NCBI RefSeq assembly: GCF_026004055.1 | Contig: NZ_BPIJ01000003.1 | Location: 124,001 to 188,000, forward strand | Reading direction: 5' to 3' | Length of the DNA: 64,000 bases | From: Meiothermus sp. | Lineage (GTDB): Bacteria; Deinococcota; Deinococci; Deinococcales; Thermaceae | Part shown: piece after piece, positions 16,979 to 31,833 of the stretch | Position numbering within the stretch: the stretch's first letter is position 1 | Layout: each line of letters begins with the position of its first letter | Position numbers and translations under genes: made by a program | Notes under the pieces: generated by a model | What the model was told of the DNA's origin: nothing | The model's input: the letters and a program-made list of their open reading frames with translations, nothing else | Database searches by the model: none

Positions 16979-18778
16979 GTGCAAGAGCGGATTAGAAATT
17001 TCTCCATCATCGCGCACGTAGACCACGGCAAGTCTACGTTGGCCGACCGCATTCTCCAGATGACTAAAGCGGTCTCGGAGCGGGAGATGCGCGAGCAGTT
17101 TTTGGATTCCTTGGAGCTCGAGCGCGAGCGCGGTATCACCATCAAGGCCAGCGCGGTGCGGCTGTTTTACCAGAGCAAGTCGGGCCAGACCTACACCTTC
17201 AACCTGATTGACACCCCCGGCCACGTGGACTTTGGCTACGAGGTTAGCCGGGCTTTGGCCGCGGTGGAGGGGGTACTGCTGGTGGTGGACGCCTCCCAGG
17301 GCGTGGAGGCCCAGACCATCGCCAACTTCTACCTGGCCCTGGAGCACGAACACACCATCATCCCGGTGATTAACAAGATTGACCTGCCGGGGGCCCAGCC
17401 GCTGGAGGTTGCGCTCGAGGTGGAAGAAGTGCTGGGCATTCCTGCCGAGGACTGCGTGTTTGCCTCCGGCAAGACCGGGCAGGGGGTGGACGAGATTCTG
17501 GAGGCCATCGTGGCCCGCATCCCGGCCCCCCAGGGCCGCCTCGAAAACCCCACCCAGGCCCTTATCTTCGACTCCATCTACGACGCCTACCAGGGGGTTA
17601 TTCCCTATGTGCGGGTGATGGACGGCCATATCAAGCCCGGTGAGGTTATCCGCATCTGGTCTACCGGCAAGGAATTTGAAGTAGACAAGGTGGGAGTTTT
17701 CCGGCCCGGTGTGCTCGAGCCTGTAGCGCAGCTCGGCCCCGGCGAGGTGGGCTGGGTGACGGCCTCCATCCGCGAGATTGGCGAGGCCCAGGTCGGCGAC
17801 ACCATTACCCTGGCCCAAAACCCCTGCCAGGCCCCTTACCCGGGCTTTAAGCCGGCCAAGCCGGTGGTGTTTGCCGGCCTCTACCCCACCGACACCCAGG
17901 AGTACAACCGGCTCCGCGAGGCCTTAGAAAAGCTCAAGCTCAACGATGCGGCACTCTCCTTTGAGCCCGAAACCTCCGAAGCCCTGGGCTTTGGCTTCCG
18001 CTGTGGCTTTTTGGGGCTGTTGCACGCCGAGATCGTGCAGGAGCGGCTCGAACGGGAGTTCAACCTCGACCTCATCTCCACCGCCCCCAGCGTGATTTAC
18101 CGGGTTAAGCTCACAGACGGCGCAGAAATCGAGATTCACAACCCTTCCGAGCTGCCCAGCCCGGACAAACTCGAGGCCATCTACGAGCCTTATGTCAGGC
18201 TCACGGTTTATACCCCCGAAGAATACGTGGGCTCCATCATGCAACTCTTACAAGAAAAGCGCGGCAAGATGGGCAACATGCACTACATCGGCAAGCGGGT
18301 CGAGCTGGTCTATGAGGTGCCCTTTGGCGAAATCCTCTACGACTTCCACGACCGTCTAAAGTCCATCAGCCGGGGCTATGCCTCCATGGACTACGAGCAG
18401 ATCGGTTACCAGGAAGGCGACTTAGTCAAGGTGAACATCCTGGTCAACGAAGAGCCGGTAGACGCCCTGGCCTTCATCGCCCACAAAGACAAGGCCTATA
18501 GCATCGGGCGCGAGATTGTAGACAAGCTCGCAGAGGTAATTCCCCGCCAGCAGTTTGCGGTGCCCATCCAGGCCGCCATCGGGGGCAAGATTATTGCCCG
18601 AGCCACCGTAAAGGCCCTGCGCAAGGACGTGCTGGCCAAGTGCTACGGCGGCGACATCACCCGCAAGAAAAAGCTTTTGGAAAAACAAAAAGAAGGCAAG
18701 AAGCGCATGAAGGCCATCGGCAAGGTAGACGTACCGCAGGAGGCCTTCCTGGCGGTGTTATCGGCTGGGCGCGACTAA
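16979..18778 (+). CDS. lepA: Elongation factor 4 (LepA)
   Basis: A 599-residue ribosomal back-translocase GTPase. G motifs are [24 protein letters not shown] and NKIDLP, and the C-terminal domain has the LepA-specific [19 protein letters not shown] tail. It starts with GTG, with TACAAT at 16964-16969 nine bases before it and no ribosome site, so a leaderless or near-leaderless message is likely. Its stop overlaps the stop of the convergent pilin gene in the four bases CTAA at 18775-18778. Confidence 0.97.
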
Positions 18779-19596
18779 TTGAGGGTGATATCGGTCAGCC
18801 GCTTGGGCAGGTTGCGCGGCGCGGCCTCGAAAAGCAGGGGGTTGGCAGGCACGCGGGAATCCCGCCCGCCCTGGCGGATTTCGCCTTGTAAGGAGAAGCG
18901 CACCTGTACTGCGCTGTGCTCGGCCCGCAGGGGCAAGGGAGGGGCTACGGGGCAAGGAGCCAACGTAGCCACCCCGGTCTCGTCAAAGCCCAAACAGTTG
19001 GCAAAACCCACCCCAAAGCCCCCGGGCTGCACATAGTCGGCCAGCAGGTTACCGGAGCTGCCCTCAATGGTGGTGGGGATGTTGGCGGGGAGACCGTTGG
19101 GCAGTCGGCTGGTACCCACTGCGATGTTGCGCTCGTAGATGTAAAGAAGCCATTTGTCGTTGTTGTTCGGGTCGGGGCCGGGGTTCTCGGCGCCCGTAGC
19201 CCGTCCTACCACCCAGCCTCGGTTGAGGGGGTAGATCATCACAAACTTCACCACTTCCACCCCCCCCTCCACGGTAGGGGGTTGGAGTAGGGCAATGGCG
19301 GGGTCTTGGCCAATACGCCAGGTGTTGGTGTTGGTAATAGGGTTTCGCACGGTATAGCCTCCGGCGCTCCCCACGGTAAGGGTCACCCCGGGGGGATAGA
19401 TAAAAGCCGCCGTGGAAAGGTAATCGCTTACCAGGTTGCCCGCATTGCGCAGGTCTTCGGTGAGGAGCTGGGAGTTTTGCACAAAACGCAGGCTATCGCT
19501 GCTGCTGCGCAGCCCGGCAGCAATCAGGCCCAGGATGGCCACCCCAATGACGGCCGAAATCAATAGTTCGATCAGGGTAATGCCGGCTCTATGCAT
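18775..19596 (-). CDS. PilW-like minor prepilin, cassette A
   Basis: A 273-residue type IV prepilin. The leader MHRAG is cut before [11 protein letters not shown]; Glu5 is present. The ATG at 19596 gives this short leader; upstream in-frame sequence belongs to the preceding pilin gene. The globular part resembles PilW/GspJ in length and has a partial calcium-loop-like DPNNND. It is the last gene of cassette A (PilX, FimT, PilV, PilW order). It ends tail-to-tail with lepA, sharing stop-codon bases. Confidence 0.82.
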
Positions 19597-19603
19597 AAGG
19601 CCT

Positions 19604-19978
19604 CTACTGGGGCGGCAGTACCACCTCGGTGGCAAAGCGATAGGGGCGGTTTTGTGGGCCGGTGAAGCGCAGGGTAACCCGGCGCAATACCACCTGGGTT
19701 CCGATAGTCTGGACGTCCTCGAGGGAAACGGTAGGGCTGCCAAAACCGCTGGGGGGCGCTACCGCAGGAAGTGCCGCGGCGTTGTAGGCTGCCCTCGTAG
19801 ACCAACTGGCCCGCAGGTTGTCGAAGTAGCTGCGGGCGTAGGCCTGGGCCTGGGTATCAATCTGGGCGTTGCGGGTGAGGGTGAAGCTCGAGCCAAAATA
19901 GGTCAGGATCAAAATAGTCAGGGAAAGGATGGCCAGCGCCACCATCACCTCGACAAAGGAAAAACCCCTACGGCGCAC
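19604..19978 (-). CDS. PilV-like minor prepilin, cassette A
   Basis: A prepilin of 124 residues if the GTG at 19978 is used. That start has GGTGGTGG a few bases upstream and gives the leader VRRRG before FSFVEVMVALAIL, with Glu5. An upstream ATG at 20011 would add 11 residues. It overlaps the end of the preceding FimT-like gene by 11 bases and is followed by the PilW-like gene after seven bases. By size and position it corresponds to PilV/GspI. Confidence 0.8.
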   Translation of the reverse strand: MRRRGFSFVEVMVALAILSLTILILTYFGSSFTLTRNAQIDTQAQAYARSYFDNLRASWSTRAAYNAAALPAVAPPSGFGSPTVSLEDVQTIGTQVVLRRVTLRFTGPQNRPYRFATEVVLPPQ

Positions 19979-20423
19979 GAACCACCACCTTTCCGGTTCT
20001 ACCAACCACATTAACGCTTAGCACGCGGCTGCCAGGGCCCCGCAGCACATAACTACTGTTGGCCCCGCTGTTCACAATGCCGTAGGGGGCATCGAACCTG
20101 ACCACACCACCCGTGGGTACGCTCTGAAAAATTACCCCAGGGGGTAGCGACTTACTCGGGAGCGAAGCCAAATCGCTGGTGCGCCCCACTTTATAGGTAT
20201 TGCTGTTGGCGCCGGCCTGGAAGGAAAAGTTGACCGACTGCCGCCGGGCCTGCTGGCGGATATTGAGCAGCTCGGTAGCCACCTGCGTAGCCGCCTCGCG
20301 GATGGCCAGGCTCTGCTGGTAAGAACGCAGCGAAACAAAGCCCACCCCCAGCAAAATGCCGAGCACCGCCAGCACAATCAAAAACTCCACCAGGCTTAGG
20401 CCCTTTGGGGAAGGTCTGTTCAC
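19968..20423 (-). CDS. FimT/GspH-like minor prepilin, cassette A
   Basis: A prepilin of about 151 residues with leader ending PSPKG before LSLVEFLIVLAVLGILL (Glu5 present). The GTG at 20423 overlaps the stop of the large pilin gene (GTGA), the usual coupling in this cluster; an ATG six codons upstream is the alternative. The C-terminal part has the beta-rich FimT/GspH pattern ending in SVNVVGRTGKVVVRAP. It is the second gene of cassette A. Confidence 0.82.
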   Translation of the reverse strand: MNRPSPKGLSLVEFLIVLAVLGILLGVGFVSLRSYQQSLAIREAATQVATELLNIRQQARRQSVNFSFQAGANSNTYKVGRTSDLASLPSKSLPPGVIFQSVPTGGVVRFDAPYGIVNSGANSSYVLRGPGSRVLSVNVVGRTGKVVVRAP

Positions 20424-22528
20424 TGCCCCACCACTTCCCATACACCGCGGCTGAGCTGGGCCTGCTGCCCACCAGGGATACGGGGGCGCAGGCGGTTGTC
20501 GTGGTAGATGTCCAGCTTGACCGGGGCCAGCACCCCGGTATCGGCGGCTACCAGGGCTCCGCGCAAGTCCCAGCGCCCCCCCAGGTTGTAGCCACGCCCA
20601 TTTTGTATCACGCTAAAGATGGCGTTGGCCGAGTACAGCAGACCATCTGTGCGCAGCGGGCCTGAAGCACGATCGCGCATGGTCTCGTTCCAAAGCAGCT
20701 TGAGGGCGGTGTTGCTAAAAGCGCTCGAGGTCAGCTCATAGCGCACCGACTGTCTGCGCAGGGCATCCACCTGAGCCTGGGTCAAAACCACGCTACCCAG
20801 CGAGGTTTCGCCCTGGCAGGTGTGCACTCGAGCCCCGGCCTGGAGGGTTTGGTAGCTTTCATAGCGCGTGGGGTCGTGCACGCAGCCATCTCCAAAGTAC
20901 ACTTCGTTTTCGCCAAAGGTATAAAAGCGAGGCCGGTAGGCATTATTGCGCAACCAACGCTGTATTTCGCTGCGGTTGAAGTTGGTCACCTCGGTCAGGG
21001 TCAGGTTGGGCCGATAGAGAGGGTCGTCCTGCCAACTTACAGATGCCCCGCTCCCACAGCCGGGCTGGGATGGATTGTTCCGGCAAACACCCATGGGAAG
21101 CTGAATTCGGTCGGTTTGTAGAAGGTTAAGGTTGTTCGCCGTAAAGGTGTCGATGCTCAAGAAATCTCCCATCAGGGTACTGCCCCCGGCAATCAGGTTG
21201 AGCTGGGGCAAGCGGCTGGGATCGCGGTAGTCACAGGCTTGCAGGGTGCTGCCCTGTCCGCAGTCGTAGGTCAGGTCGCCCAAAATGTACACGTTGCCCC
21301 GGGCCAGAATCGTCCCATTACCCCGAACACGGCCTCGGATGACCACATCGCCATTGATGAAAACCGTGCCGCTGAGGCTGATGGGCGTCACCGAGCCATC
21401 CAGAATGACGTTTTTACGAGAAAGGCCCAGCGCTGCCGAGTCGAGCGTTTGCACGCCAGAACCCCCTGGCCAGGCAATGCTGCTGGGATTAACCAGCATC
21501 GGGGCACTAATACTGCCGGCAAAGTAGTTTTCGTTGCGGTTATCGAGGCTCGCTTGCACTTCGTCTAGCCACTCCGCGTCGTCAATGAGGCGGTTGTTGT
21601 TGTCGTCGGGAATGGGCAGCGGAAAAAAGTCTGGCAGCTCACCGTCGGGGTAGCGGTTGCCAAAGGCGGCCAGACGGGTGCTGTCTGGATAGTTGTAGTA
21701 CAGGTTCTGGGTCGTGCTACAGTTGCTGGGGTTGCTGCAATCGGCAGGCGCGGGGCGAAGGGGTGTAACGGAGCGGATACGGGTCTGACCCGGCTCGAGG
21801 GTGGTGAAGTAGCGCGTGGAGGGCTCGAGGCGACCGCTGTACTGCTGACGCACCGTACCCCGGGTTACCAGGGAACCATGCACGATGCCCGCTTCCTGTT
21901 CGTCGCGCATCACCAGATCTTCCAGCACCCCCACCTTGATTCGTCGCCACCAGGTGCTGGGATCGCTGGGGTTGGGGTTGCCCCGGAAGGCGTCCATGCT
22001 ACGCACCTCGAGGTGGCAAAAGATGCAGTCGGCCTTATTGGTCAGGAAAGGGTAGTCGAAAGGAAACGGCGCCCGGGCCACCCGAAAAACCTGTCGCAGA
22101 CGTCGGGTAGTACCGTCAGGCAAGGTGCCGGTCGAGAGCACGGTTAGCTCGATGAAGGCCTCGCCCGAAGGGCTGGCGGTATCCCGACGGGAAACCCGCA
22201 CCGTATAGCTGCCCCCCTCCCCCAGGGTCTGGGGCTGGCCAAACAAGCTGTTGAGGGTGGCACCATTGGTTAGACCCATGCGTTCTAGGGCCTGTCGGTA
22301 ACCGGTCACGCTGGAGGAGGTGGCCTCGGCCAGCACCTGGTGCCACAGCCGGGCCACCGCTCGCTCGAGGCCCGCCTCGGCGGCGAACTGGGCCTGCGAG
22401 GTACGCAGAGCGTCCTGGGCATTGCGGCGGTTGTTGAGCGAGGTGATCGAAGCGACGCTAACCAGAATAATAACGATGAACATGAATACCAGGGTAGAAA
22501 CCAGGGTTATCCCCTTTGCTCTTGGCAT
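20420..22528 (-). CDS. Large PilX/ComZ-like prepilin with CXXCH and calcium-loop motifs, cassette A
   Basis: A 702-residue prepilin-like protein. The leader MPRAKG is followed by ITLVSTLVFMFIVIILV; residue 5 after the cut is Ser, not Glu, as in tip subunits such as GspK and PilX. A pilin helix with QFAAEAGLERAVARLWHQ follows. Cys168-Ile-Phe-Cys171-His172 is a haem-c or metal-type CXXCH. Residues 308-319 (DDNNNRLIDDAE) fit a 12-residue EF-hand loop. The central part (about 340-450) has repeated short strands with GNGTILARGNVYILGD, like a beta-solenoid. It is the first gene of cassette A, with GGGAGG five bases before the ATG. Confidence 0.78.
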   Translation of the reverse strand: MPRAKGITLVSTLVFMFIVIILVSVASITSLNNRRNAQDALRTSQAQFAAEAGLERAVARLWHQVLAEATSSSVTGYRQALERMGLTNGATLNSLFGQPQTLGEGGSYTVRVSRRDTASPSGEAFIELTVLSTGTLPDGTTRRLRQVFRVARAPFPFDYPFLTNKADCIFCHLEVRSMDAFRGNPNPSDPSTWWRRIKVGVLEDLVMRDEQEAGIVHGSLVTRGTVRQQYSGRLEPSTRYFTTLEPGQTRIRSVTPLRPAPADCSNPSNCSTTQNLYYNYPDSTRLAAFGNRYPDGELPDFFPLPIPDDNNNRLIDDAEWLDEVQASLDNRNENYFAGSISAPMLVNPSSIAWPGGSGVQTLDSAALGLSRKNVILDGSVTPISLSGTVFINGDVVIRGRVRGNGTILARGNVYILGDLTYDCGQGSTLQACDYRDPSRLPQLNLIAGGSTLMGDFLSIDTFTANNLNLLQTDRIQLPMGVCRNNPSQPGCGSGASVSWQDDPLYRPNLTLTEVTNFNRSEIQRWLRNNAYRPRFYTFGENEVYFGDGCVHDPTRYESYQTLQAGARVHTCQGETSLGSVVLTQAQVDALRRQSVRYELTSSAFSNTALKLLWNETMRDRASGPLRTDGLLYSANAIFSVIQNGRGYNLGGRWDLRGALVAADTGVLAPVKLDIYHDNRLRPRIPGGQQAQLSRGVWEVVGQ

Positions 22529-22539
22529 GAAACCCTCCC

Positions 22540-22579
22540 AATCTTACGTACCCTACCCCCAAATCTTAACGTACCCTAC
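22540..22579 (-). promoter_or_regulatory. Tandem TACGT repeats upstream of cassette A
   Basis: Two near-identical copies occur 22 bases apart: AATCTTACGTACCCTAC at 22540-22556 and AATCTTAACGTACCCTAC at 22562-22579 (plus-strand reading). They sit 12-51 bases before the large pilin start. Spacing of about two helical turns suggests binding sites for a dimeric regulator; each minus-strand copy also contains a TAAGAT that could act as a -10 box. Confidence 0.5.
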
Positions 22580-22612
22580 TCGAATGATTTGTAATTGACT
22601 TGAATTGTAACA

Positions 22613-22626
22613 CCCCCATTTGGGGG
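22613..22626. promoter_or_regulatory. Palindrome CCCCCATTTGGGGG upstream of cassette A
   Basis: The same 14 bases occur at 32060-32073 upstream of cassette C, with a variant at 27267-27280 upstream of cassette B. It lies between the response-regulator stop and cassette A. It could be a terminator for the regulator gene, but no T run follows. Confidence 0.45.
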
Positions 22627-22649
22627 TACTGGGCTACAAACAAGGATGG

Positions 22650-23234
22650 CTACCCACTTAGCAGCCCCAGGCTGCGGGCGCGCTCGAGGGCCTCTACCCG
22701 GTTGCGGGCCTCGAGTTTTTCATAAAGCCGCACCAGGTGGTCTTTCACGGTTTCGGGCGAAATGTGCAGGTGGCGGGCGATTTCTTTGGTCGAAAGCCCC
22801 TGAGCCATCCACTGCAACACCTCTTGTTCGCGGGCGGTGAGTTTGGGTAGTTCGGGGGCCCGCAGCCGGGGCTCTTGTCCCAGGCTGAGCCGGCGCAGGC
22901 GTTCGGCCAGGGCCTCGGGGGGTAGTTCTTTCGACCAGTAGGCGTCGGCCCCGGCATAGGCGGCCTGCTGAACCAAAACCGGCTCGTTGAAGGTGGTCAG
23001 GAGGGTAATGAGGCCCGCGTAGCGCTGCTCGCGCAGCATACGGGCGGTGGCGATTCCGTCTAGCTGGGGCATGCGCACATCCAGCACCACCCCGTCCGGC
23101 AACAGTTGCAGGCACAGATCCAGGGCTTCCTGGCCATCGCCGGCCTCCCCTACCACCTCGAAGCCTTCACGCTCGAGGGCCGCTCGCAGGCCCACGCGGA
23201 ACAGGGGGTGGTCGTCGGCAATCAGAAGGCGCAT
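22650..23234 (-). CDS. NarL/FixJ-type response regulator
   Basis: A 194-residue two-component regulator. The receiver domain has the acidic pair Asp7-Asp8, phospho-acceptor Asp52 in VVLDVRMP, and normal spacing. The LuxR-type helix-turn-helix is at about 130-190 (LTAREQEVLQWMAQG, STKEIARHLHISPETVKDHL). It lies between pilin cassettes B and A on the same strand, so it plausibly regulates them. No kinase is adjacent; the nearest is at 27440-28429, on the other side of cassette B. An extended -10 (TGCTATTTT) sits eight bases before its ATG. Confidence 0.92.
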   Translation of the reverse strand: MRLLIADDHPLFRVGLRAALEREGFEVVGEAGDGQEALDLCLQLLPDGVVLDVRMPQLDGIATARMLREQRYAGLITLLTTFNEPVLVQQAAYAGADAYWSKELPPEALAERLRRLSLGQEPRLRAPELPKLTAREQEVLQWMAQGLSTKEIARHLHISPETVKDHLVRLYEKLEARNRVEALERARSLGLLSG

Positions 23235-23256
23235 CTAAACTCAAAATAGCACAAGG

Positions 23257-23280
23257 GCCCCCGGGGCATAGCCCAGGGGC
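23257..23280 (-). terminator. GC-rich hairpin after cassette B
   Basis: On the minus strand GCCCCTGGGC-TAT-GCCCCGGGGGC forms a strong stem between the end of the cassette B large pilin and the response regulator start. The following sequence (CTTGTGCTATTTT) is only moderately T-rich, so this may attenuate rather than stop transcription. Confidence 0.5.
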
Positions 23281-23301
23281 TCTCGTGTAAAGCAATTTGG
23301 T

Positions 23302-25431
23302 TTATTGGTTGTAGTCGCGGTGGAAGAGTTCTTGGCTCATATAGGAGGCCATGGGCGTGAGCGGGGGCAGCAGGGTGAAGTTACGGAAGCGGGTATCAAA
23401 AGCCCAGTTACGAATTGGAGGGTGGTACCAGGGCTGGCCCAGGAAGAAGTTTCCGTTTACGTGCTGCGGGCCGTTGGTTGTAAGGCTCACAATAGAACCC
23501 CGGTAGGTAAAGGTGCGCGAGGCTGTGATGTTGTTGAAGCGTCGCATCGAAAGGTTCACACCATTGATACTCAAGTTCACAGTACCGAAGAAAGCCCCCT
23601 TGAGCACAGACCAAATTGCCGCACTGAGGGGGGCTATGCGAACTTCGGGCCACTGGTTGGTCCACTGTTCGTGGAAACGCATGATGTTGTGCACCCCCCC
23701 CGCACTCTGGCCTCCGATGGTGGGGGTAATGGTGGAGCCGGTCAAAACTGCCGCCTGCACAATGGTATTGCTCGCCGGAGGAATCCAGCGGTTGGGTGCG
23801 TTGCTGCTATCTTCCGAGGTGCCCAGCGGCATCCAGCGGTTACGGCAACGGGGGTTGCTTTTGGCATCACCCCCAATCTGGGTTGCGGTGGGGTCAACTA
23901 CAGCGCCGTTGAGCGCCACGGTACCGCAGGCATTGGGGATGTTGTTGGTAAAGCCTGTGGGGTTGACAAAGGCCGGCCCATAGTGGCCGCTGATATAGGG
24001 GTTGGGGTGTTGGTTGAACCACTCGTTGGACAGAATGTTGATGGAGTCGCTCAAAAGGGCCGCCGGGCGCCACCTAGAGGAGGCACTCGTACTTAGGTCG
24101 CTGTTGTAATCGCCCTGAACATAGAGGGCCTGGTTGGTGACGACCGTCAAGCCCTTAATTTGCGGATTGGCAATGGTCAGGTCGGCCCCGTTGCGAATGC
24201 GCACCCCGTAGTTGTTGAGGCCCGAACTGTTGGGCCCCACCACCCCAAAGTAGAACACCAGACCGTTATCGGTGGTGTCGGCCAGGTTCACCAGGTCGCT
24301 GGTCTGCAAGGCCTGCAACAGCGCGGCCATATTGACCTCGAGCATATGAATAGGGCCTAGGTTGGGCCGGGTGGTGAGCTCGCGGTTGTTGTAAAAGGAG
24401 TTGGAGTAGTCCACCGGGCGGGTACCGCCACCGGTGTTGGGGTCAAAGGCCGTTCCAGTGTTGAGCAACGTGGTCAGGGCCACATTCACCGAACCGTCTA
24501 CGTTGCGAACCTCCACTTGGGGCAAGGCAGTATTGAGGTTGAGCACCACCCGCAGCTCGGCCCGCTCCCAATACAGACCGCCGGGGTCGAAGGCCGAGGG
24601 CGCAGGAATTTGCAGGGGGTTCATGTTGTTCTGTACCCGCCCGGCCCAGGTTGCATTGGAAAGCTCCGCGTTCGTGAGGGTGCGGCGAGCACCGCCCCCA
24701 CAGTTGATCTCCACCGAAAGCACCGAAACTGTCCCGTTGCAGCCCACGTTGCTCTTGCCGCCCCGGTAGATATCCCGCACCGCAGTGACATTGTCCGTGA
24801 CGGTCAGACTGGCACTGCCCCCGGCATCCAAGAAGATATTGGCGTTGGAGTGGATGGGCCCATCCATGGTCATGGTGGCCGTACGGTCAAATTCCAGGTC
24901 GCCCTCATAGAAGACCCCAAACTGGAAAAGGGGAATCAGCCGCTGACGAAAGGTCATCCGTACAATGGCCTCGGGCTGATTCTGCCGGTTCAGGGCCCGC
25001 GCAAACACATCGTAGCGGTACTGGTTGGCCCAGAGGCCTTGGAAGGGCTCCCCAGGTGGAATGGAGATGGTATCACCGTTGACCACGTTGTTGGTCAGCT
25101 CGCGCATATAGGTGACTACTTGCTTACCTTGAACGGTAGTGGTCTGGCAGGCAAAATCGCCGCTGCCCATATTCCCAGAGCTGCAGGGGTTGCTGGCACC
25201 GGGAGCGGTTCCACTGGGCCGGCTATAGTTGGCGAACTGCTCCTTGACGGCTGCCGCCCGCAGGTTTAGAGCCGACTCGGCAGCAAAAAACCCCTTGGTG
25301 CGGGAAGACTGAGCGGCGGAGTTGTTGGTATCCAGTACAGAGATGGTGAAGTAAGCCGTGAGCAACGTAGCCAGTACGGCCATCATCAGCACCACTGCCA
25401 GGAAAGCAAAGCCTCGGTTGGACATATTCAC
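23302..25431 (-). CDS. Large PilX/ComZ-like prepilin, cassette B
   Basis: A 709-residue prepilin-like protein. The leader MNMSNRG precedes FAFLAVVLMMAVLATLL; position 5 is Ala, so Glu5 is missing as in PilX/GspK. The helix continues with KGFFAAESALNLRAAAVKEQF. The globular part is rich in Asn, Gly and short strands (for example GPIHSNANIFLDAGGSASLTVTDN), compatible with the beta-solenoid insertion known in Thermus ComZ. The GTG at 25431 is chosen because AGGAGG lies six bases upstream; an ATG two codons later is possible. It is the last gene of cassette B. Confidence 0.78.
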   Translation of the reverse strand: MNMSNRGFAFLAVVLMMAVLATLLTAYFTISVLDTNNSAAQSSRTKGFFAAESALNLRAAAVKEQFANYSRPSGTAPGASNPCSSGNMGSGDFACQTTTVQGKQVVTYMRELTNNVVNGDTISIPPGEPFQGLWANQYRYDVFARALNRQNQPEAIVRMTFRQRLIPLFQFGVFYEGDLEFDRTATMTMDGPIHSNANIFLDAGGSASLTVTDNVTAVRDIYRGGKSNVGCNGTVSVLSVEINCGGGARRTLTNAELSNATWAGRVQNNMNPLQIPAPSAFDPGGLYWERAELRVVLNLNTALPQVEVRNVDGSVNVALTTLLNTGTAFDPNTGGGTRPVDYSNSFYNNRELTTRPNLGPIHMLEVNMAALLQALQTSDLVNLADTTDNGLVFYFGVVGPNSSGLNNYGVRIRNGADLTIANPQIKGLTVVTNQALYVQGDYNSDLSTSASSRWRPAALLSDSINILSNEWFNQHPNPYISGHYGPAFVNPTGFTNNIPNACGTVALNGAVVDPTATQIGGDAKSNPRCRNRWMPLGTSEDSSNAPNRWIPPASNTIVQAAVLTGSTITPTIGGQSAGGVHNIMRFHEQWTNQWPEVRIAPLSAAIWSVLKGAFFGTVNLSINGVNLSMRRFNNITASRTFTYRGSIVSLTTNGPQHVNGNFFLGQPWYHPPIRNWAFDTRFRNFTLLPPLTPMASYMSQELFHRDYNQ

Positions 25432-25441
25432 ACTAGACCTC

Positions 25442-26356
25442 CTACTGCGAGAGGAAGTTGCGAGGGAAGAACTCGTTGGTTTGGGTGCGGGTGACGCCTT
25501 GGGGGTCGGTGGCCGTGATGGTGATGCGCACCCGGCTTAGATCCGAAAGTGGCATGGTGGCATTCCAAAGGCTACCGGTAGGAGTCAGGGGTTCTACCCG
25601 AAACTGCGTCACCCCCACCATAACGGCCCGCCCCGGCCCGCCGTTTTCGGAGAGCAAAAGCTGTCCGGCAGAGAGGGTATACTGCCTGCGGTCAACCAAC
25701 ATCAAGCTCGAGCCTTGCCCGTAGGTGCCGCTGGTAGAACCGGTGTAGGTAAAACTGTAGTTGGTGGCAGTACCGCTACCAGCGGTGAGGTTGATCAGCT
25801 TACCCGTACGCAAGGAGGGGTTGTAGAGATACACCTGCACGCTACCTCCTTGTGCGATGCGGTAGTTGTTGAAAGGCTCGGCCACATCGGGGATGTTGTT
25901 GCTGTTGCCATCGCCCTGGCCACAGCTATTGCTCGAGCTAGCCACAGGAATACTGCTGGCCGTGGCATTACCGCACAGCCCAATGGGAGTGGGAATGTTT
26001 GATCCGCTGCGGGCAAACCAGACCTCGAGGCTGTCGCCGGGCGTGCCTGCGGTGACCCAGATGGGTCTGGGGCTCGAGTTGTATCCCGCCCCCGCATATA
26101 GCAGTCCTTGGCCCGCCTGGCGCAAGTCGTCCCCAATCATGGCCATGGCAGCTTGAATATCCTGGTTTATCCCGGTACGAGACTGATCCAGGGTATAAAG
26201 CCGCCGACCCCCCATCACAATGGGTACCAACAAAGCCAGGATCAGAACCGAAACCGCCGAAGCAATCAACAGCTCAACTAAGGTCAGACCATCCTTTCTC
26301 CGCATTGGCAAGCGAAAACGACGACTTTGTTGTAAAGGTTCAGTTGAAAATGACAT
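25442..26356 (-). CDS. PilW-like minor prepilin with calcium-loop motif, cassette B
   Basis: A 304-residue PilW/GspJ-type prepilin. GGAGG lies six bases before the ATG at 26356, giving a long 23-residue leader ending MRRKDG, before LTLVELLIASAVSVLIL with Glu5. Residues 149-160 (DGNSNNIPDVAE) match an EF-hand-type loop with Asp1, Asn3, Asn5, Asp9 and Glu12. It overlaps the PilV-like gene by 17 bases and ends 10 bases before the large pilin. Confidence 0.82.
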   Translation of the reverse strand: MSFSTEPLQQSRRFRLPMRRKDGLTLVELLIASAVSVLILALLVPIVMGGRRLYTLDQSRTGINQDIQAAMAMIGDDLRQAGQGLLYAGAGYNSSPRPIWVTAGTPGDSLEVWFARSGSNIPTPIGLCGNATASSIPVASSSNSCGQGDGNSNNIPDVAEPFNNYRIAQGGSVQVYLYNPSLRTGKLINLTAGSGTATNYSFTYTGSTSGTYGQGSSLMLVDRRQYTLSAGQLLLSENGGPGRAVMVGVTQFRVEPLTPTGSLWNATMPLSDLSRVRITITATDPQGVTRTQTNEFFPRNFLSQ

Positions 26357-26729
26357 ACACCGCCTCCAAGCTATAAACCAGGCGACCGTCCAGCCTTACC
26401 TCGACCCGGAACTGGCGCTTGTCGCTGGAGCACTGGCTGGCATCCGGGCAAAAAACCGTGGTAACGGAGTAGTTTCTACCCCCTTGCGATACAGTCTGGG
26501 GTGAAGTGCTACCGGACATGGGGATGGTAGCCCCGGCTGCGCCCTTGGTTTGGCGTCGCCAGAAGTCCATTTGCTGCTGTGCAACAATAATCGCTTGGTT
26601 ACGAACCTCGTTATCGGTATTGGACTGCAAGAAACCTACAAAGCTGGGGATGACAAAAGCCAGCAAAATACCCAGAATGGCCAGGGCCACCAGGGCTTCG
26701 ATGAGGGAGAAACCCAGGGATTTTCTCAT
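26340..26729 (-). CDS. PilV-like minor prepilin, cassette B
   Basis: A 129-residue prepilin with the short leader MRKSLG before FSLIEALVALAILGILLAF; Glu5 is present. Size and the QQQMDFWRRQ stretch after the helix fit PilV/GspI. Two cysteines (VFCPDASQC) could form a disulfide loop. Its ATG overlaps the stop of the FimT-like gene by four bases. Confidence 0.83.
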   Translation of the reverse strand: MRKSLGFSLIEALVALAILGILLAFVIPSFVGFLQSNTDNEVRNQAIIVAQQQMDFWRRQTKGAAGATIPMSGSTSPQTVSQGGRNYSVTTVFCPDASQCSSDKRQFRVEVRLDGRLVYSLEAVYVIFN

Positions 26730-27196
26730 TGCTTGACCACACCTCCCCCCAAAAGAACCTGCATTCCACGGGTTCTTCCTTCTCGGCTTAGGGTAAGGGT
26801 CAGGTTGCTGGGCGAGCCCAGGCTTCCGCGGCTATTGAAGCAGATGCTCCAGGAAGTAGGGCTCATGGTTACCCCTTCGCCCAGTTGTAAGCCGCGCAAG
26901 CCTCCCCCCAAATCGCGTCCGATACTGGCATCGGTAGCCCAGGTAGTCGCACTACAACTGGTTGCCCACTGCACCCAAATGGTGCCGTCGTTGGCCACCA
27001 GACGATAGGCCGCGGTATTCTGCATGGCTTTAATACGGGCCAACCGAACCAGTGAAACCAATTCGGCATACTGGTTTTCTAAAGGGTTGGAAAAACCCCT
27101 AAAACCTACCAGAGCTACCGAGAACAAAACGGCCATCACCGCTGTTACGATGATGCCTTCGATCAGGGTAAAGCCCCGCATTGAAAATCTGGTCAT
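26726..27196 (-). CDS. FimT/GspH-like minor prepilin, cassette B
   Basis: A 156-residue prepilin. AAGGAG lies five bases before the ATG at 27196, giving leader MTRFSMRG before FTLIEGIIVTAVMAVLFSV with Glu5; an upstream in-frame start would add seven residues without a ribosome site. The body follows the GspH pattern (LVRLARIKAMQNTAAYRLV, ending in a strand-rich LTLSREGRTRGMQVLLG). It is the first gene of cassette B. Confidence 0.84.
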   Translation of the reverse strand: MTRFSMRGFTLIEGIIVTAVMAVLFSVALVGFRGFSNPLENQYAELVSLVRLARIKAMQNTAAYRLVANDGTIWVQWATSCSATTWATDASIGRDLGGGLRGLQLGEGVTMSPTSWSICFNSRGSLGSPSNLTLTLSREGRTRGMQVLLGGGVVKQ

Positions 27197-27266
27197 GTAG
27201 CTCCTTTGCATATCCAAGCTAGCCCCTCACCAACTCCAAAGTAAGAGGAGGTTACAGGCTTGTAGA

Positions 27267-27311
27267 CCCCCGATTGGGGGCTGGAACGTTACGTTAATCG
27301 CTTATTAATCC
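27267..27311. promoter_or_regulatory. Palindrome and AACG/TACGT motif upstream of cassette B
   Basis: CCCCCGATTGGGGG at 27267-27280 is followed by AACGTTACGTTAATCG and TTATTAATCC. The same order and polarity on the plus strand (AACG..ACGT.A, then ATTAAT) occurs upstream of cassette C at 31966-31995. It lies 71-115 bases before the first cassette B start and 130 bases after the end of the kinase gene. The palindrome alone could be a kinase-gene terminator. Confidence 0.45.
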
Positions 27312-27439
27312 AGCTATGCAAACGACCCCAATGTTTGATTAATTTGCTTGCGATAGGCTTTTTCGCCTAAGTTTGTCTTGATTCAACCAAGCAACCAGGA
27401 TTGTTCAAAAATCACAAGCCTCGGCAAGCCCGGCCTGGG

Positions 27440-28429
27440 TCAGGGCTGTAGGTACAACCGCAACCGCGACCCCTGCTGCTTTTTCAGGTTTTCCAACCGC
27501 CCCCCATGTACCTCGGCCACCCGCCGGGCCACATACAGCCCCAGCCCTGCGCTGCCGGCCCGCACCCCCCGCAGGCGCTGGCTGCGGAAGGGCTGGGAGA
27601 GGGCTTCCAGGCTATCGGGCAGGCCGGGCCCATCGTCTTCAACCTCGAGCCAGCCATCCCCCGCCCTAAGCACCACCCGGCTTCGGGCGTGTCGCAGGGC
27701 GTTCTCGGTCAGGTTCGCCAGGGCCCGCTCGAGCAAGAGCCGCTCGGCGCGGGCCTGTCCGGCCCCTTCAATCTCCAGGCGCAGGCCGCGCTTTTGGGCT
27801 TGCTGGGCGTAGCGCAGGCGAAAGTCTTCCAGAATCGAGCGCAGGTTGAGGTTTTCCGGCTGGATGCGCTGGGCCTCGAGGCGGCTGGCGGTGAGCAGGT
27901 TTTCTACGAGTTGGTAGCTCCGGTTGAGCTCGTCGCGCAGACTGCGCAGCATTTCCTTGCGCTTCTCAGGCCCAATCTTGTCGGCCTCTTCCAGGTATTC
28001 CAGCGCCCGCAAGCTGGCCAACAGGGGGGTCTTGAGGTCGTGGGTCAGGGCGGCGTAGGTGGCCTCGCGGGCCTCCAGCAGCTCGCGCAGGTGGTTCAGC
28101 ACCTCCTCGAAACCCTCGCGAAGCTGCTCGATCTCGGCAGGAGGACGTTGTTGGGGCGAGGGCAGCGAAAGCTCGGCCAGGGTGCGGCCGGCCCCCCGCA
28201 GGTAGTACAGGCTGCGGGTCAATTCATCTACCGGGCGCAGCAGCGCATTGGCCAGAATATACCCCACACCGGCAGCGACCAGGGCCAGCACCAAGACCCA
28301 GACCAACAAAAAAAGCCGGGTCTCCAGGGGTTGCCCGCGGGCCGAGACCCAGAAGGTGAGCACAATGGCCAGGTTGGGAATAAAGGCCAGCAAACCAATC
28401 ACCCAGGCCAGTTGGTGCTTGAGCGACAT
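27440..28429 (-). CDS. Sensor histidine kinase, membrane-bound
   Basis: A 329-residue kinase. Two transmembrane segments (residues about 9-30 and 38-62) enclose almost no extracytoplasmic domain, so it probably senses within the membrane or through partners. A HAMP-like linker follows (LLRPVDELTRSLYYLRG). The phospho-acceptor is His130 in ALTHDLKTPL. The ATPase domain has NLTENALRHA, EDDGPGLP and GSAGLGLYVARRVAE. It lies between pilin cassettes C and B. No regulator is adjacent; the NarL-type regulator at 22650-23234 is the only candidate in the window, although HisKA kinases more often pair with OmpR-type regulators. Confidence 0.9.
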   Translation of the reverse strand: MSLKHQLAWVIGLLAFIPNLAIVLTFWVSARGQPLETRLFLLVWVLVLALVAAGVGYILANALLRPVDELTRSLYYLRGAGRTLAELSLPSPQQRPPAEIEQLREGFEEVLNHLRELLEAREATYAALTHDLKTPLLASLRALEYLEEADKIGPEKRKEMLRSLRDELNRSYQLVENLLTASRLEAQRIQPENLNLRSILEDFRLRYAQQAQKRGLRLEIEGAGQARAERLLLERALANLTENALRHARSRVVLRAGDGWLEVEDDGPGLPDSLEALSQPFRSQRLRGVRAGSAGLGLYVARRVAEVHGGRLENLKKQQGSRLRLYLQP

Positions 28430-28471
28430 GGCTCCAGTCTACCTATCCCTATCCGGAATTGGTTTTTCCGT

Positions 28472-28497
28472 AAAAACCCCCACGCATAGCGTGGGGG
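28472..28497 (-). terminator. Terminator of pilin cassette C
   Basis: Stem CCCCCACGC-ATA-GCGTGGGGG followed on the minus strand by five T. It lies just after the comZ-like stop and before the kinase gene, so cassette C is probably its own transcription unit. Confidence 0.88.
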
Positions 28498-28514
28498 CAA
28501 GCGGGCGTATCGGC

Positions 28515-30185
28515 TTAGCGCCGCTCGTAGGACATGATCTTGAAGGAAGCAATGATGGTGTCTTCGGGGATTTGCGCTGCAACCGGGATGTTGCCCATGG
28601 TGGGAACATAGGTCACCTCGGCCTGCTGACCCGCATTGCACTGGCTGCCCCCGGCGCTGGTGGTGCAGAACTCGTTGGCCACCACGGTACCCAGGGTGCG
28701 CTGGTTGCGCTGGGTGCGAAACCGGCCTCCGGCATAGAAGATACCCATGGCATTGTTGGTGAGCTGCTCGAGGTTGTTCTGGGCCAAGAGCCCCAGCACC
28801 TGGTTGGGGAAGGTGGCCGAACTGGCGTCGGGCAGCACATCACGGTTCAGGGTAATGCTGCCGCCCTCTACAAAAATAGAGGCGTTGCGCTCGGTGGGGT
28901 CGGCAAAGTTGAAGGCCCGGTAGTTGACTGCATTGTCGAAGCTCACATTAATGCCACTGGTGTGCAGGGTTCCGTAAATTTCTAGAATACCAGGGTTGCC
29001 TGCCATATAGCGGAAGCCACCGGTTTTGCCGTTTAGGGTGTAGCGACAGTCCATACTGGTGCTGCCGAAGCGCAGCACGCCACCGCTGAGCACATTGCCC
29101 AAAACGCACGAGAGCGGACTGGTGGGAATAGCCCCTACAGGGAAAAGGACGGCCCCGCTGGTGATACGAAGACCCTGGCTGGCCGCCTCGTCACGCACGC
29201 AGGCCGCCCAGGTGCGGGAGGGGTCGGTGGTGCAGGGGGTGGTGTTGAACTCGGGAAAGCGGGGCGCGAGGGCGGGGGGCAGGTCGAAGGCCCCGCGGTC
29301 ATCGGTGCAGATGCCCCGGTTGGCGGCGCAGACGCTCGAGGTATTGCCGTAAATGTCGTTGGCGGCATCCCCCACATAAGCCCCTAGGAGTGGGTTGCTG
29401 GGCGTGCCATAGCTCGAGCTCCCCCCCACTTCTACCCGCCCATACTGCACCCGCAGGGTAGCGCAGAGGTTGGCAAGGCTGCGCATATCGCTGTTGAGGC
29501 GGTTGCTGAGCACGCTATCGGAGGTGTAGTTGTAATCGTTATATAGGGCAAAATTGCCGTTGGAGTCAATCACAGCTTTATCGGGGTCATTGCTTTGACC
29601 CTGTACATAAAGCCCACCCCGTATCAAAGCTCCTCCGTTGAGGTGCTTGTTGGCGGCCCCGCGCCCGCTAAAGATGGCATAGTTCCAGGGGCCGGTATTG
29701 GAGAGGTCGAAGGTGGCCTGGGCAATGGCCTGCGAGCCATTGAACCGGCCCACCGAGCGCACCAACATGAAGCGCGGGCGGGTGGGATCCTGGGCCACGG
29801 TGATGGTGTAGGTACCGGTACCGGTGCCCATCGGTACACTGCCGGTGCGGGTGGTAGGCAGGGTTTCGTTGCTCTCGATGGTGCCGTTGCGGTTCCAGTC
29901 CACACCAGCCGCCAGCACGTTGCCGCACTCGCTGCGGGTGGGGGTACGGCTCCCCCCAACGTTTCTAACAGTCTGGTAGAGCTGCCAGCGGTAGGCCTGG
30001 AACAGGCGGGTTTTCCACTGCTGCAGGCCGGTTTCGGCCACATAGTAGGCTTCGGTTGCGCCCCGCTCGTTGCGGGCGCTCCACTGGCTAATCATGGTGG
30101 TGACCGAGGAGGCAAAAGCCAGCAGTCCCACCGCGACCAGAATGGCCAGCGTGACGACCAGGGCGATTCCTTGGGGTTGTTTCAT
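28515..30185 (-). CDS. comZ: ComZ-like large minor pilin with EF-hand-type loop, cassette C
   Basis: A 556-residue prepilin-like protein, about the length of Thermus thermophilus ComZ, the competence pilin with a beta-solenoid insertion implicated in DNA binding at the pilus tip. The leader MKQPQG precedes IALVVTLAILVAVGLLAF; position 5 is Val, not Glu. Residues 96-107 (DWNRNGTIESNE) match an EF-hand loop at every ligand position. Repeated short strands with many Asn and Gly follow (IRGGLYVQGQ, GGFRYMAGN, GILEIYGTLHTSG). The ATG overlaps the stop of the upstream PilW-like gene by one base. The symbol rests on length, gene order and architecture, not alignment. Confidence 0.78.
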   Translation of the reverse strand: MKQPQGIALVVTLAILVAVGLLAFASSVTTMISQWSARNERGATEAYYVAETGLQQWKTRLFQAYRWQLYQTVRNVGGSRTPTRSECGNVLAAGVDWNRNGTIESNETLPTTRTGSVPMGTGTGTYTITVAQDPTRPRFMLVRSVGRFNGSQAIAQATFDLSNTGPWNYAIFSGRGAANKHLNGGALIRGGLYVQGQSNDPDKAVIDSNGNFALYNDYNYTSDSVLSNRLNSDMRSLANLCATLRVQYGRVEVGGSSSYGTPSNPLLGAYVGDAANDIYGNTSSVCAANRGICTDDRGAFDLPPALAPRFPEFNTTPCTTDPSRTWAACVRDEAASQGLRITSGAVLFPVGAIPTSPLSCVLGNVLSGGVLRFGSTSMDCRYTLNGKTGGFRYMAGNPGILEIYGTLHTSGINVSFDNAVNYRAFNFADPTERNASIFVEGGSITLNRDVLPDASSATFPNQVLGLLAQNNLEQLTNNAMGIFYAGGRFRTQRNQRTLGTVVANEFCTTSAGGSQCNAGQQAEVTYVPTMGNIPVAAQIPEDTIIASFKIMSYERR

Positions 30186-30862
30186 CACAGCACCTCGTCG
30201 GTTTTCAGGTTGCGGATCGGCACCCGCTGGGCGATGGTGTAGGTGTAGGTGCCCTGAGGTGAGGTCGCCGTCACGGTCACCAGCGCCGCCCGCACAAAAC
30301 GTTCGGTGGGGTTGGCCACGGCAATACAGCCGCTGGGGAGCCCCACTTCGGTGGCCGCGGCATCGCCGCAGACATAGCGGATGTTGAGCTGGGTGATGTT
30401 GGGGGCAAACTCGCGGTAGCTGCTGGCCGCAATCGCGCCGGTAGGGGCCTGGCTGCAAGGCACATCAGCCCGCAGAAGGGTGGTTCCGTTGAAGCTATAG
30501 CCAACGGAGCGGCACTCCTGGCCGTTTGGATAGAGACTGGTGTGGTAGCGGGTCACAAAGGTGTCCCGCTCGAGCTGGTCGGTGCCGGTGAGGCAGGGCG
30601 TTCCGGGCGCGCAAGAAACCCAGCTAGTCGCGTCAAAGCGCACCTCGTTGCCCCGGATAAAGCGGCTCGAGCCCGCCAGCAGCAAGTCCTGGCTCACCAT
30701 CTGCAGCACCAGGCGGGCCCGATCCTGTACCTCGTTGCGCTCCTGCACAATGCGGGTGTCCTGTGACTGGCTGGCCAAAAAGCGGGTGGCAATGGCCAGC
30801 ACCCCGGCAAAAATCGCCAGCACCACCATCAGCTCGAGAATCGTCAAACCTTTAGTTCGCAT
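30185..30862 (-). CDS. PilW-like minor prepilin (PilA3 position), cassette C
   Basis: A 225-residue prepilin: leader MRTKG, then LTILELMVVLAIFAGVLAI with Glu5. The following DRARLVLQMVSQDLLLAGS is the PilW/GspJ pattern after the helix. It directly precedes the ComZ-like gene, the place of pilA3 in Thermus. The start follows the PilA2-like stop by nine bases. Confidence 0.83.
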   Translation of the reverse strand: MRTKGLTILELMVVLAIFAGVLAIATRFLASQSQDTRIVQERNEVQDRARLVLQMVSQDLLLAGSSRFIRGNEVRFDATSWVSCAPGTPCLTGTDQLERDTFVTRYHTSLYPNGQECRSVGYSFNGTTLLRADVPCSQAPTGAIAASSYREFAPNITQLNIRYVCGDAAATEVGLPSGCIAVANPTERFVRAALVTVTATSPQGTYTYTIAQRVPIRNLKTDEVL

Positions 30863-30871
30863 GGCAAGCTC

Positions 30872-31318
30872 CTAGTTGGGACGCGGACAGGGCTCGAGGC
30901 TCCCCGCCCCAATGGCGGCGGTACGCGAAGCAAAACTGTCGTAGCACGAAACCTTGGTAGCCAGGTTAATGGTGATGCCCTGGCTGGCCGCCGAGGACTG
31001 AATCAGGATCTGCCCTTCCCCGTCCAGACCTTCGTCTATGCCGCTGTTGATGATGAATCCGGTACCTGAACAAACAAAGCCGTTGCCGCTCTCATTGCCG
31101 GTGGGGCAGCCGTTGTAGTAGCGGGTAAAGTTGGCCAGCACCACCCCCACCTGGTTTTCCAGAATTTGCGTGGCGGTGTCCTTGACCTGGCTTACCACCC
31201 CCGCCCGGGCGGTGGCGCGGTAGTTGGTAACCTGCGAGAACACCAGCACCCCAAACGCTACCGCCATCACGGCCAGGGCAATCAGCAACTCGACCAACGT
31301 AATTCCTCGATTCTGCAT
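30872..31318 (-). CDS. PilV-like minor prepilin (PilA2 position), cassette C
   Basis: A 148-residue prepilin: leader MQNRG, then ITLVELLIALAVMAVAFGV with Glu5. Four cysteines are present in the globular part (NGCPTGN, FVCSGTG, SCYDS, PCPRPN), which suggests disulfides. It occupies the pilA2 position between the FimT-like and PilW-like genes; the gap to the upstream gene is eight bases. Confidence 0.83.
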   Translation of the reverse strand: MQNRGITLVELLIALAVMAVAFGVLVFSQVTNYRATARAGVVSQVKDTATQILENQVGVVLANFTRYYNGCPTGNESGNGFVCSGTGFIINSGIDEGLDGEGQILIQSSAASQGITINLATKVSCYDSFASRTAAIGAGSLEPCPRPN

Positions 31319-31326
31319 GATGGCTC

Positions 31327-31833
31327 CTATGGACAGGCCGCTCTGATCTGGGCGCGGCCCTGCTGGTTGATGTTCACGAAACGGCTATACGAGCCGATGG
31401 CAAGCTCCACACTGCGGCTGGTGGCCAGCTGGTAGACCCCCCGAGCGTCGAACACCACCTCGGCGCTGGTAGAGGCCGCGGCATCGGCAGCAGTACACTG
31501 CCGCAGGCTGGCTACAATCCGGCCCCACTCGCCCTCCCCAAACTGGGTGCGGCTGATCACGGGGTCGCTGTTATCCAGGCCGTTCTGGTCGGCATCGGCC
31601 ACAATTTCGTAGCGGTTGGTTCCGCTGCCAAAGCTGAATCGGATTCCCACCGGCACGTTGCGCCGCAGGGCCTCGAGGCGGGCGCGGGTCACGTCGGCAC
31701 TGAGAATCTGGGCCGCCTGATTGACCCGCATCCGGTCGGAGTTAAACCACCCGCCTCCCAGGGCAATCAAAATGCCTAAAATGGCGGTCACCACGATCAG
31801 TTCAATTACGCTCAGACCGCTGGCTCGCTTCAC
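31327..31833 (-). CDS. FimT/GspH-like minor prepilin (PilA1 position), cassette C
   Basis: A 168-residue prepilin starting at GTG 31833, with GGGAGG five bases upstream. Leader MKRASG precedes LSVIELIVVTAILGILIAL with Glu5. The TRARLEALRRNVPVGIRF stretch is typical of FimT/GspH. Residues 80-91 (DADQNGLDNSDP) give a partial calcium-loop pattern, Asp1-Asp3-Asn5-Gly6-Asn9, but lack Glu12. It is the first gene of cassette C. Confidence 0.84.
   Translation of the reverse strand: MKRASGLSVIELIVVTAILGILIALGGGWFNSDRMRVNQAAQILSADVTRARLEALRRNVPVGIRFSFGSGTNRYEIVADADQNGLDNSDPVISRTQFGEGEWGRIVASLRQCTAADAAASTSAEVVFDARGVYQLATSRSVELAIGSYSRFVNINQQGRAQIRAACP

Follow-up and report, generated by a model that had tools for sequence, protein, structure and literature searches.

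The question raised by this locus is whether the short Asp/Asn-rich loops that recur in its minor pilins are calcium sites and, if so, what the ions would do there. The window, that is, the whole 64,000-nt stretch of DNA that was analyzed (positions 124001-188000 of contig C3 in the 3.18-Mb genome of a Meiothermus sp.), contains three minor-pilin cassettes, each of which consists of a FimT/GspH-like, a PilV-like, and a PilW-like pilin together with one large pilin.

18775-22528, minus strand: minor-pilin cassette A
23302-27217, minus strand: minor-pilin cassette B
28515-31833, minus strand: minor-pilin cassette C

Cassette A was found in nearly all genomes of the genus. The distribution of cassette C is patchy, with a ComZ relative in 9 of the 18 genomes of the genus (the source genome counted, and that of G036 being distant); a ComZ with 57% identity in another family (L017) hints at horizontal transfer. 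Close orthologs of the cassette B PilW occurred in two other genomes only. Cassettes A and B are separated by a NarL/LuxR-type response regulator (22653-23234, minus strand), and cassettes B and C by a CreC/EnvZ-type sensor kinase (27443-28429, minus strand); the two may be regulators of the pilin cassettes. The large PilX-like pilin of cassette B (23305-25431, minus strand) matched the cyanobacterial hormogonium polysaccharide protein HpsA (NF038301, E 8.6e-18), and the cassette B PilW weakly matched HpsC, so that this cassette may share a common ancestry with an Hps-type pseudopilin set.

The loops and the four pilins that carry them are as follows.

20423-22528, minus strand: large minor pilin of cassette A, 702 aa, a PilX/GspK-type protein with a sizeable insertion (open reading frame, AlphaFold2 model, PilX_N and MinC_C matches, hhalign)
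21572-21607, minus strand: EF-hand-type loop DDNNNRLIDDAE at residues 308-319 of this pilin, with an invariant Trp directly after it (translation, conservation, model)
25445-26356, minus strand: cassette B PilW-like minor pilin, 304 aa (N_methyl match at the cut-off, relatives, alignment)
25877-25912, minus strand: loop DGNSNNIPDVAE of this PilW, residues 149-160 (translation, conservation)
28518-30185, minus strand: large ComZ-like pilin of cassette C, 556 aa when read from the Met codon that ends at 30185 (phmmer; PilX_N, E 3e-07)
29865-29900, minus strand: loop DWNRNGTIESNE at residues 96-107 of the ComZ-like pilin, within the alpha1-beta1 part of its pilin domain (translation, relatives)
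31330-31833, minus strand: cassette C FimT/GspH-like minor pilin, 168 aa (GspH PF12019, E 2e-08)
31561-31596, minus strand: shortened loop DADQNGLDNSDP of this FimT, residues 80-91 (translation, relatives)

A preliminary description of this DNA had placed loops at these residues of the cassette A large pilin, the cassette B PilW, and the cassette C ComZ-like protein, and the translations agree with it. The partial loop that it had noted in FimT is also present, but lies outside the interval 20420-30185 to which it had been assigned.

Strings of this kind could simply be chance products of Asn-rich proteins, given that the Asn-rich pilin heads raise the base rate and that the pattern, D.[DN].[DN]...[DESTN]..[DE], was defined after the loops had been seen. 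The pattern occurred three times in the 12 pilins of the window (3,718 aa), compared with twice in a background of 342 genes (110,824 aa) taken from 19 stretches of the source genome (a 380-kb sample). When the residues of the window pilins were shuffled 5,000 times with their composition kept, no shuffle gave three matches and two gave two. The corresponding Poisson P value of ~5e-5 is optimistic because the pattern was fixed post hoc, and the case therefore rests on conservation in relatives, which is an independent test. Relatives of all four loop proteins were collected in class-level searches of 111 genomes, and those with <60% identity were counted as independent. In all four families, the loop ranked above every other stretch of its protein when scored for D/N/E at positions 1, 3, 5, 9, and 12. 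The ligand positions are conserved among the orthologs of the cassette A and B proteins (see below), which rules out a chance origin for these two loops. The earlier claim that the recurrence exceeds chance is thus upheld, and we regard chance as a very improbable explanation of the loops as a whole. No EF-hand family was present among the Pfam matches of the pilins (E up to 0.1) or of their family members (E up to 0.1-1). Weak Pfam matches to GEVED and SdrD_B domains, observed for FimT relatives and for the ComZ-like protein, were counted in favor of calcium. Profiles of the FimT, PilW, and large-pilin alignments, when searched against the PDB, gave only N-terminal helix or chance matches, and no template for the loops.

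The strongest candidate is the loop of cassette A. A single-sequence AlphaFold2 model of the large pilin was discarded (pLDDT 39), and the model used was built from an 18-sequence alignment (pLDDT 86.6, pTM 0.82). In this model, an N-terminal helix (residues 4-68) and strands at 107-152, on one side, and C-terminal strands at 652-701, on the other, flank the insertion, as expected for a PilX/GspK-type pilin. PilX_N was matched by 13 of the 18 family members, and MinC_C was matched weakly by 16 of the 18. A MinC function was considered and rejected: the MinC_C/FapA matches are weak, and we interpret them as a beta-solenoid repeat common to these proteins. The loop lies within the insertion, directly before the beta-solenoid-like stretch to which the MinC_C matches at 389-419 belong. 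Helical or mutually distant ligand residues, or a loop not conserved in orthologs, had been named in the preliminary description as evidence against calcium. Neither objection holds for cassette A: the ligand positions are conserved (see below), and the model gives a coil at 301-316 and then a helix at 317-328. The first residue of this helix, 317, is loop position 10, where the exiting helix of an EF hand also begins. No entering helix precedes the loop in the model, the nearest upstream helix being at 283-289, and the site is therefore an EF-hand-type loop rather than an EF hand.

All five ligand positions of the cassette A loop were retained in 9 of 10 independent relatives. Across 23 rows with <90% identity, position 1 was D in 22 and E in 1, position 3 was N in 19, D in 3, and G in 1, position 5 was N in 18 and D in 5, position 9 was D in 18 and S in 5, and position 12 was E in 22 and D in 1. 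Position 13 was W in all 23 rows, and positions 2, 4, and 11 were variable. The loop was broken in one large-pilin relative (L070). The family extends from Meiothermus (the nearest named genus) and Calidithermus to other Thermaceae, Trueperaceae, and an uncultured Deinococcales bacterium, and the order large pilin-FimT-PilV-PilW was retained at most loci long enough to display the operon. Some relatives that retain the loop are placed in Trueperaceae rather than Thermaceae, and a heat adaptation of one genus is therefore unlikely to be its sole explanation. None of the three loops matches the literal motif Dx[DN]xDG: the cassette A, B, and C sequences begin with DDNNNR, DGNSNN, and DWNRNG, respectively, with Asn at position 5 throughout and Gly at position 6 in cassette C only. 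Position 6 is Arg in cassette A and Asn in cassette B instead of the usual Gly, which was counted against calcium. Taking the sequence conservation and the model together, we consider it highly probable that the cassette A loop binds calcium.

For the cassette B PilW, the ligand positions were retained in six of nine independent relatives, and the loop was broken or lost in 3 of 14 relatives. Thermus relatives carry DGDGNGWDDRLE, DEDNNGFDDRID, and similar sequences at the loop, which we take to resemble thrombospondin-3-type calcium loops. Position 8 is Pro or Asp rather than a hydrophobic residue, and this was counted against calcium. On the basis of these sequence comparisons, calcium binding by the cassette B loop is probable, with less confidence than for cassette A.

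The cassette C large pilin aligned with Thermus thermophilus ComZ (6QVI; phmmer E 8.8e-104) over residues 43-567 of the 567-aa reading, and the homology spans the pilin and solenoid domains. Half of the loop, G-[IVL]-D-[WLF]-[DN]-R-[DN]-G, is conserved throughout the ComZ family. Of the layout with Glu at position 9 that had been described earlier, the loop itself is confirmed; acids at both positions 9 and 12 (ESNE, DSDE, or DADE) are confined to the cassette C clade, and these acids have possibly arisen by chance. T. thermophilus ComZ has DLDRDGTITPFV, with no acid at loop position 12. The source genome encodes a second ComZ on contig C2, in which the corresponding sequence is DWDRGGSSPPQ and the full loop is absent; it belongs to an additional FimT-PilV-PilW-ComZ locus (G000:C2:340735-344334, L039), none of whose pilins contains a complete loop, and which could be the housekeeping competence locus. 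The ComZ loop may thus be generally a metal-free turn that has become a fuller site in the cassette C clade, or merely a turn. Judging from the sequences, calcium binding by the cassette C ComZ-like loop is conceivable, but we lean slightly against it. The cassette C FimT loop corresponds to a GspH-family loop lacking one residue, and the full 12 residues were found in 10 of 24 relatives; many from Thermus have this complete form, for example, DANRDGTFNPGE. Some Thermus relatives of FimT and ComZ satisfy Dx[DN]xDG. The shortened FimT loop itself is rather unlikely to bind calcium.

The ComZ family bears on the proposal that all of these loops are metal-free Asx-turns and helix N-caps, in which an Asp/Asn-rich turn is followed by an acid capping the next helix and no ion is held. 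T. thermophilus ComZ retains DLDRDG at this site, and the text of the paper reporting its structure at 2.72 A mentions no metal (PMC6561018). Furthermore, the Arg at ComZ loop position 4 is nearly invariant (29/30), suggesting a salt-bridged turn, and Asn is heavily used at positions 3 and 5. However, a turn does not require acids at position 9 plus position 12 while positions 2, 4, and 11 are free, and in cassette A the 1/3/5/9/12 pattern persists in relatives down to 26% identity. We therefore judge a metal-free turn to be an unlikely, but not negligible, general explanation.

In our favored reading, which we hold to be moderately probable, the EF-hand-type loops of the cassettes are structural Ca2+ staples that rigidify the minor-pilin heads. 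The minor pilins of a cassette (FimT/GspH, PilV/GspI, and PilW/GspJ, with one large PilX/GspK) would build the pilus tip, and their loops would take up Ca2+ after export, outside the cell, where calcium is plentiful. Each ion would staple together the loop and the part of the head domain that comes next; in the cassette A pilin, the staple would sit within the insertion, where the long coil meets helix 317-328. A large head stapled in this way would be rigid enough to cap and initiate the pilus and to bear traction, and the calcium sites would be structural, not regulatory. The cassette A loop, nearly unchanged over distant relatives, probably locks the folded head of a tip protein. We infer the tip location of the cassette A large pilin from its insertion and from the analogy with ComZ and GspK, and the identity of the metal as Ca2+, the mechanical or assembly role, and the calcium-dependent tip stability or adhesion suggested in the preliminary description likewise go beyond direct observation.

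Two tip-type pilins are informative here. Cassette A and T. thermophilus ComZ have the pilin domain in common, and both are large tip-type pilins with an insertion. When the cassette A and ComZ families were compared using hhalign (probability 96.8), only the pilin domain aligned (cassette A residues 1-164). The ComZ loop, in the alpha1-beta1 region, falls within the aligned stretch, whereas the cassette A loop lies ~140 residues past it, in the inserted domain, in accord with the earlier claim that the loops occupy non-homologous positions. GspK/XcpX resembles the cassette A protein in being a large pilin-domain protein with a big insertion and GspH/I/J partners, and in its location at the filament tip, which for cassette A is presumed. 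XcpX, a homologous tip pseudopilin of the GspK type, contains crystallographic Ca2+ and binds it with a Kd of 26 uM by ITC (PMC6211770). The GspK/XcpX sites are structural, two being canonical with a third in XcpX (PMC6211770), whereas the cassette A site is predicted. The inserted domains also differ, that of cassette A being beta-solenoid-like, and the GspK sites, unlike the Meiothermus loops, are not described as a single 12-residue EF-hand-type loop (PMC6211770); the sites are likened rather than matched. By analogy, the staple role is likely closer to the GspK/XcpX pseudopilins than to PilY1.

We take GspG/PulG to be a major subunit with a site different from the Meiothermus loops. This major pseudopilin has a calcium-stabilized pilin-family head (PMC5131608, PMC7248040). 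PilY1, the analog named in the preliminary description, turned out to be a poor one, and GspK/XcpX is closer. The C-terminal domain of PilY1 is similar in that it has an EF-hand-like Ca2+ loop in a pilus-tip protein; however, it is a beta-propeller with a 9-residue Dx[DN]xDGxxD motif and is not a pilin (PMC8833165, PMC3123361). The wider Dx[DN]xDG class shares the ligand spacing and the extracellular location in unrelated structural contexts, and the passages of its survey that were searched by term named PilY1 and no minor pilin (PMC3123361). Cassette A has Asn5 and Arg6 where this class has Asp-Gly. No PilY1 family was detected when the loop-bearing pilins were scanned against Pfam and NCBIfam.

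PilY1 is also the precedent for a different reading, in which calcium is a regulatory switch of pilus extension/retraction or adhesion rather than a permanent structural ion, since in other bacteria the formation of pili is controlled by EF-hand-like sites in PilY1 (PMC8833165). A search for PF05567 gave no match in 111 genomes of the class, with the control likewise silent, and the minor pilins might assume the PilY1 role; however, the silent control leaves the absence of PilY1 unsupported, and the loops are scattered over different subunits. Single calcium loops without a paired EF hand or an entering helix are, moreover, usually structural. We consider a regulatory switch quite improbable.

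The large pilin of cassette A also contains a c-type heme attachment signature.

22013-22027, minus strand: CIFCH, residues 168-172 of the cassette A large pilin (C168-C171-H172)

CxxCH was conserved in 17 of 18 aligned rows and, as CSFCH or CSLCH, also in the distant L075-L077; in L176, it was lost and the calcium-type loop was retained. The region is coil/strand, not helix, in the model. From its sequence, CIFCH could serve heme, zinc, or a CxxC disulfide. In Myxococcus, the noncanonical cytochrome c TfcP promotes the calcium-dependent stability of PilY1 (PMC8833165). It is an improbable speculation that the cassette A pilin is a tip subunit with both a calcium site (308-319) and a covalent c-type heme (CIFCH, 168-172), uniting the parts of Myxococcus PilY1 and TfcP in one chain, and that heme or redox state and calcium jointly control tip folding or activity in Meiothermus, Calidithermus, and Trueperaceae.

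Our search of the literature on calcium and EF hands in minor pilins, with subscription journals mostly outside its scope, returned PilY1, GspG, and GspK/XcpX and no Deinococcota minor pilin. Calcium in pilin-family tip proteins is already known; what is new within the literature searched is its proposed occurrence in this family of Deinococcota minor pilins, at this position and with this type of loop. If the staple reading is correct, the calcium stapling of tip subunits, already familiar from PilY1 and from the pseudopilins of type II secretion, would extend to the large type IV minor pilins of Deinococcota, and would have arisen at positions that are unrelated between one tip subunit and another. 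It would also show where to place metal when tip complexes are modeled or crystallized, and would provide a simple reason for calcium-dependent piliation or DNA uptake in Thermaceae.
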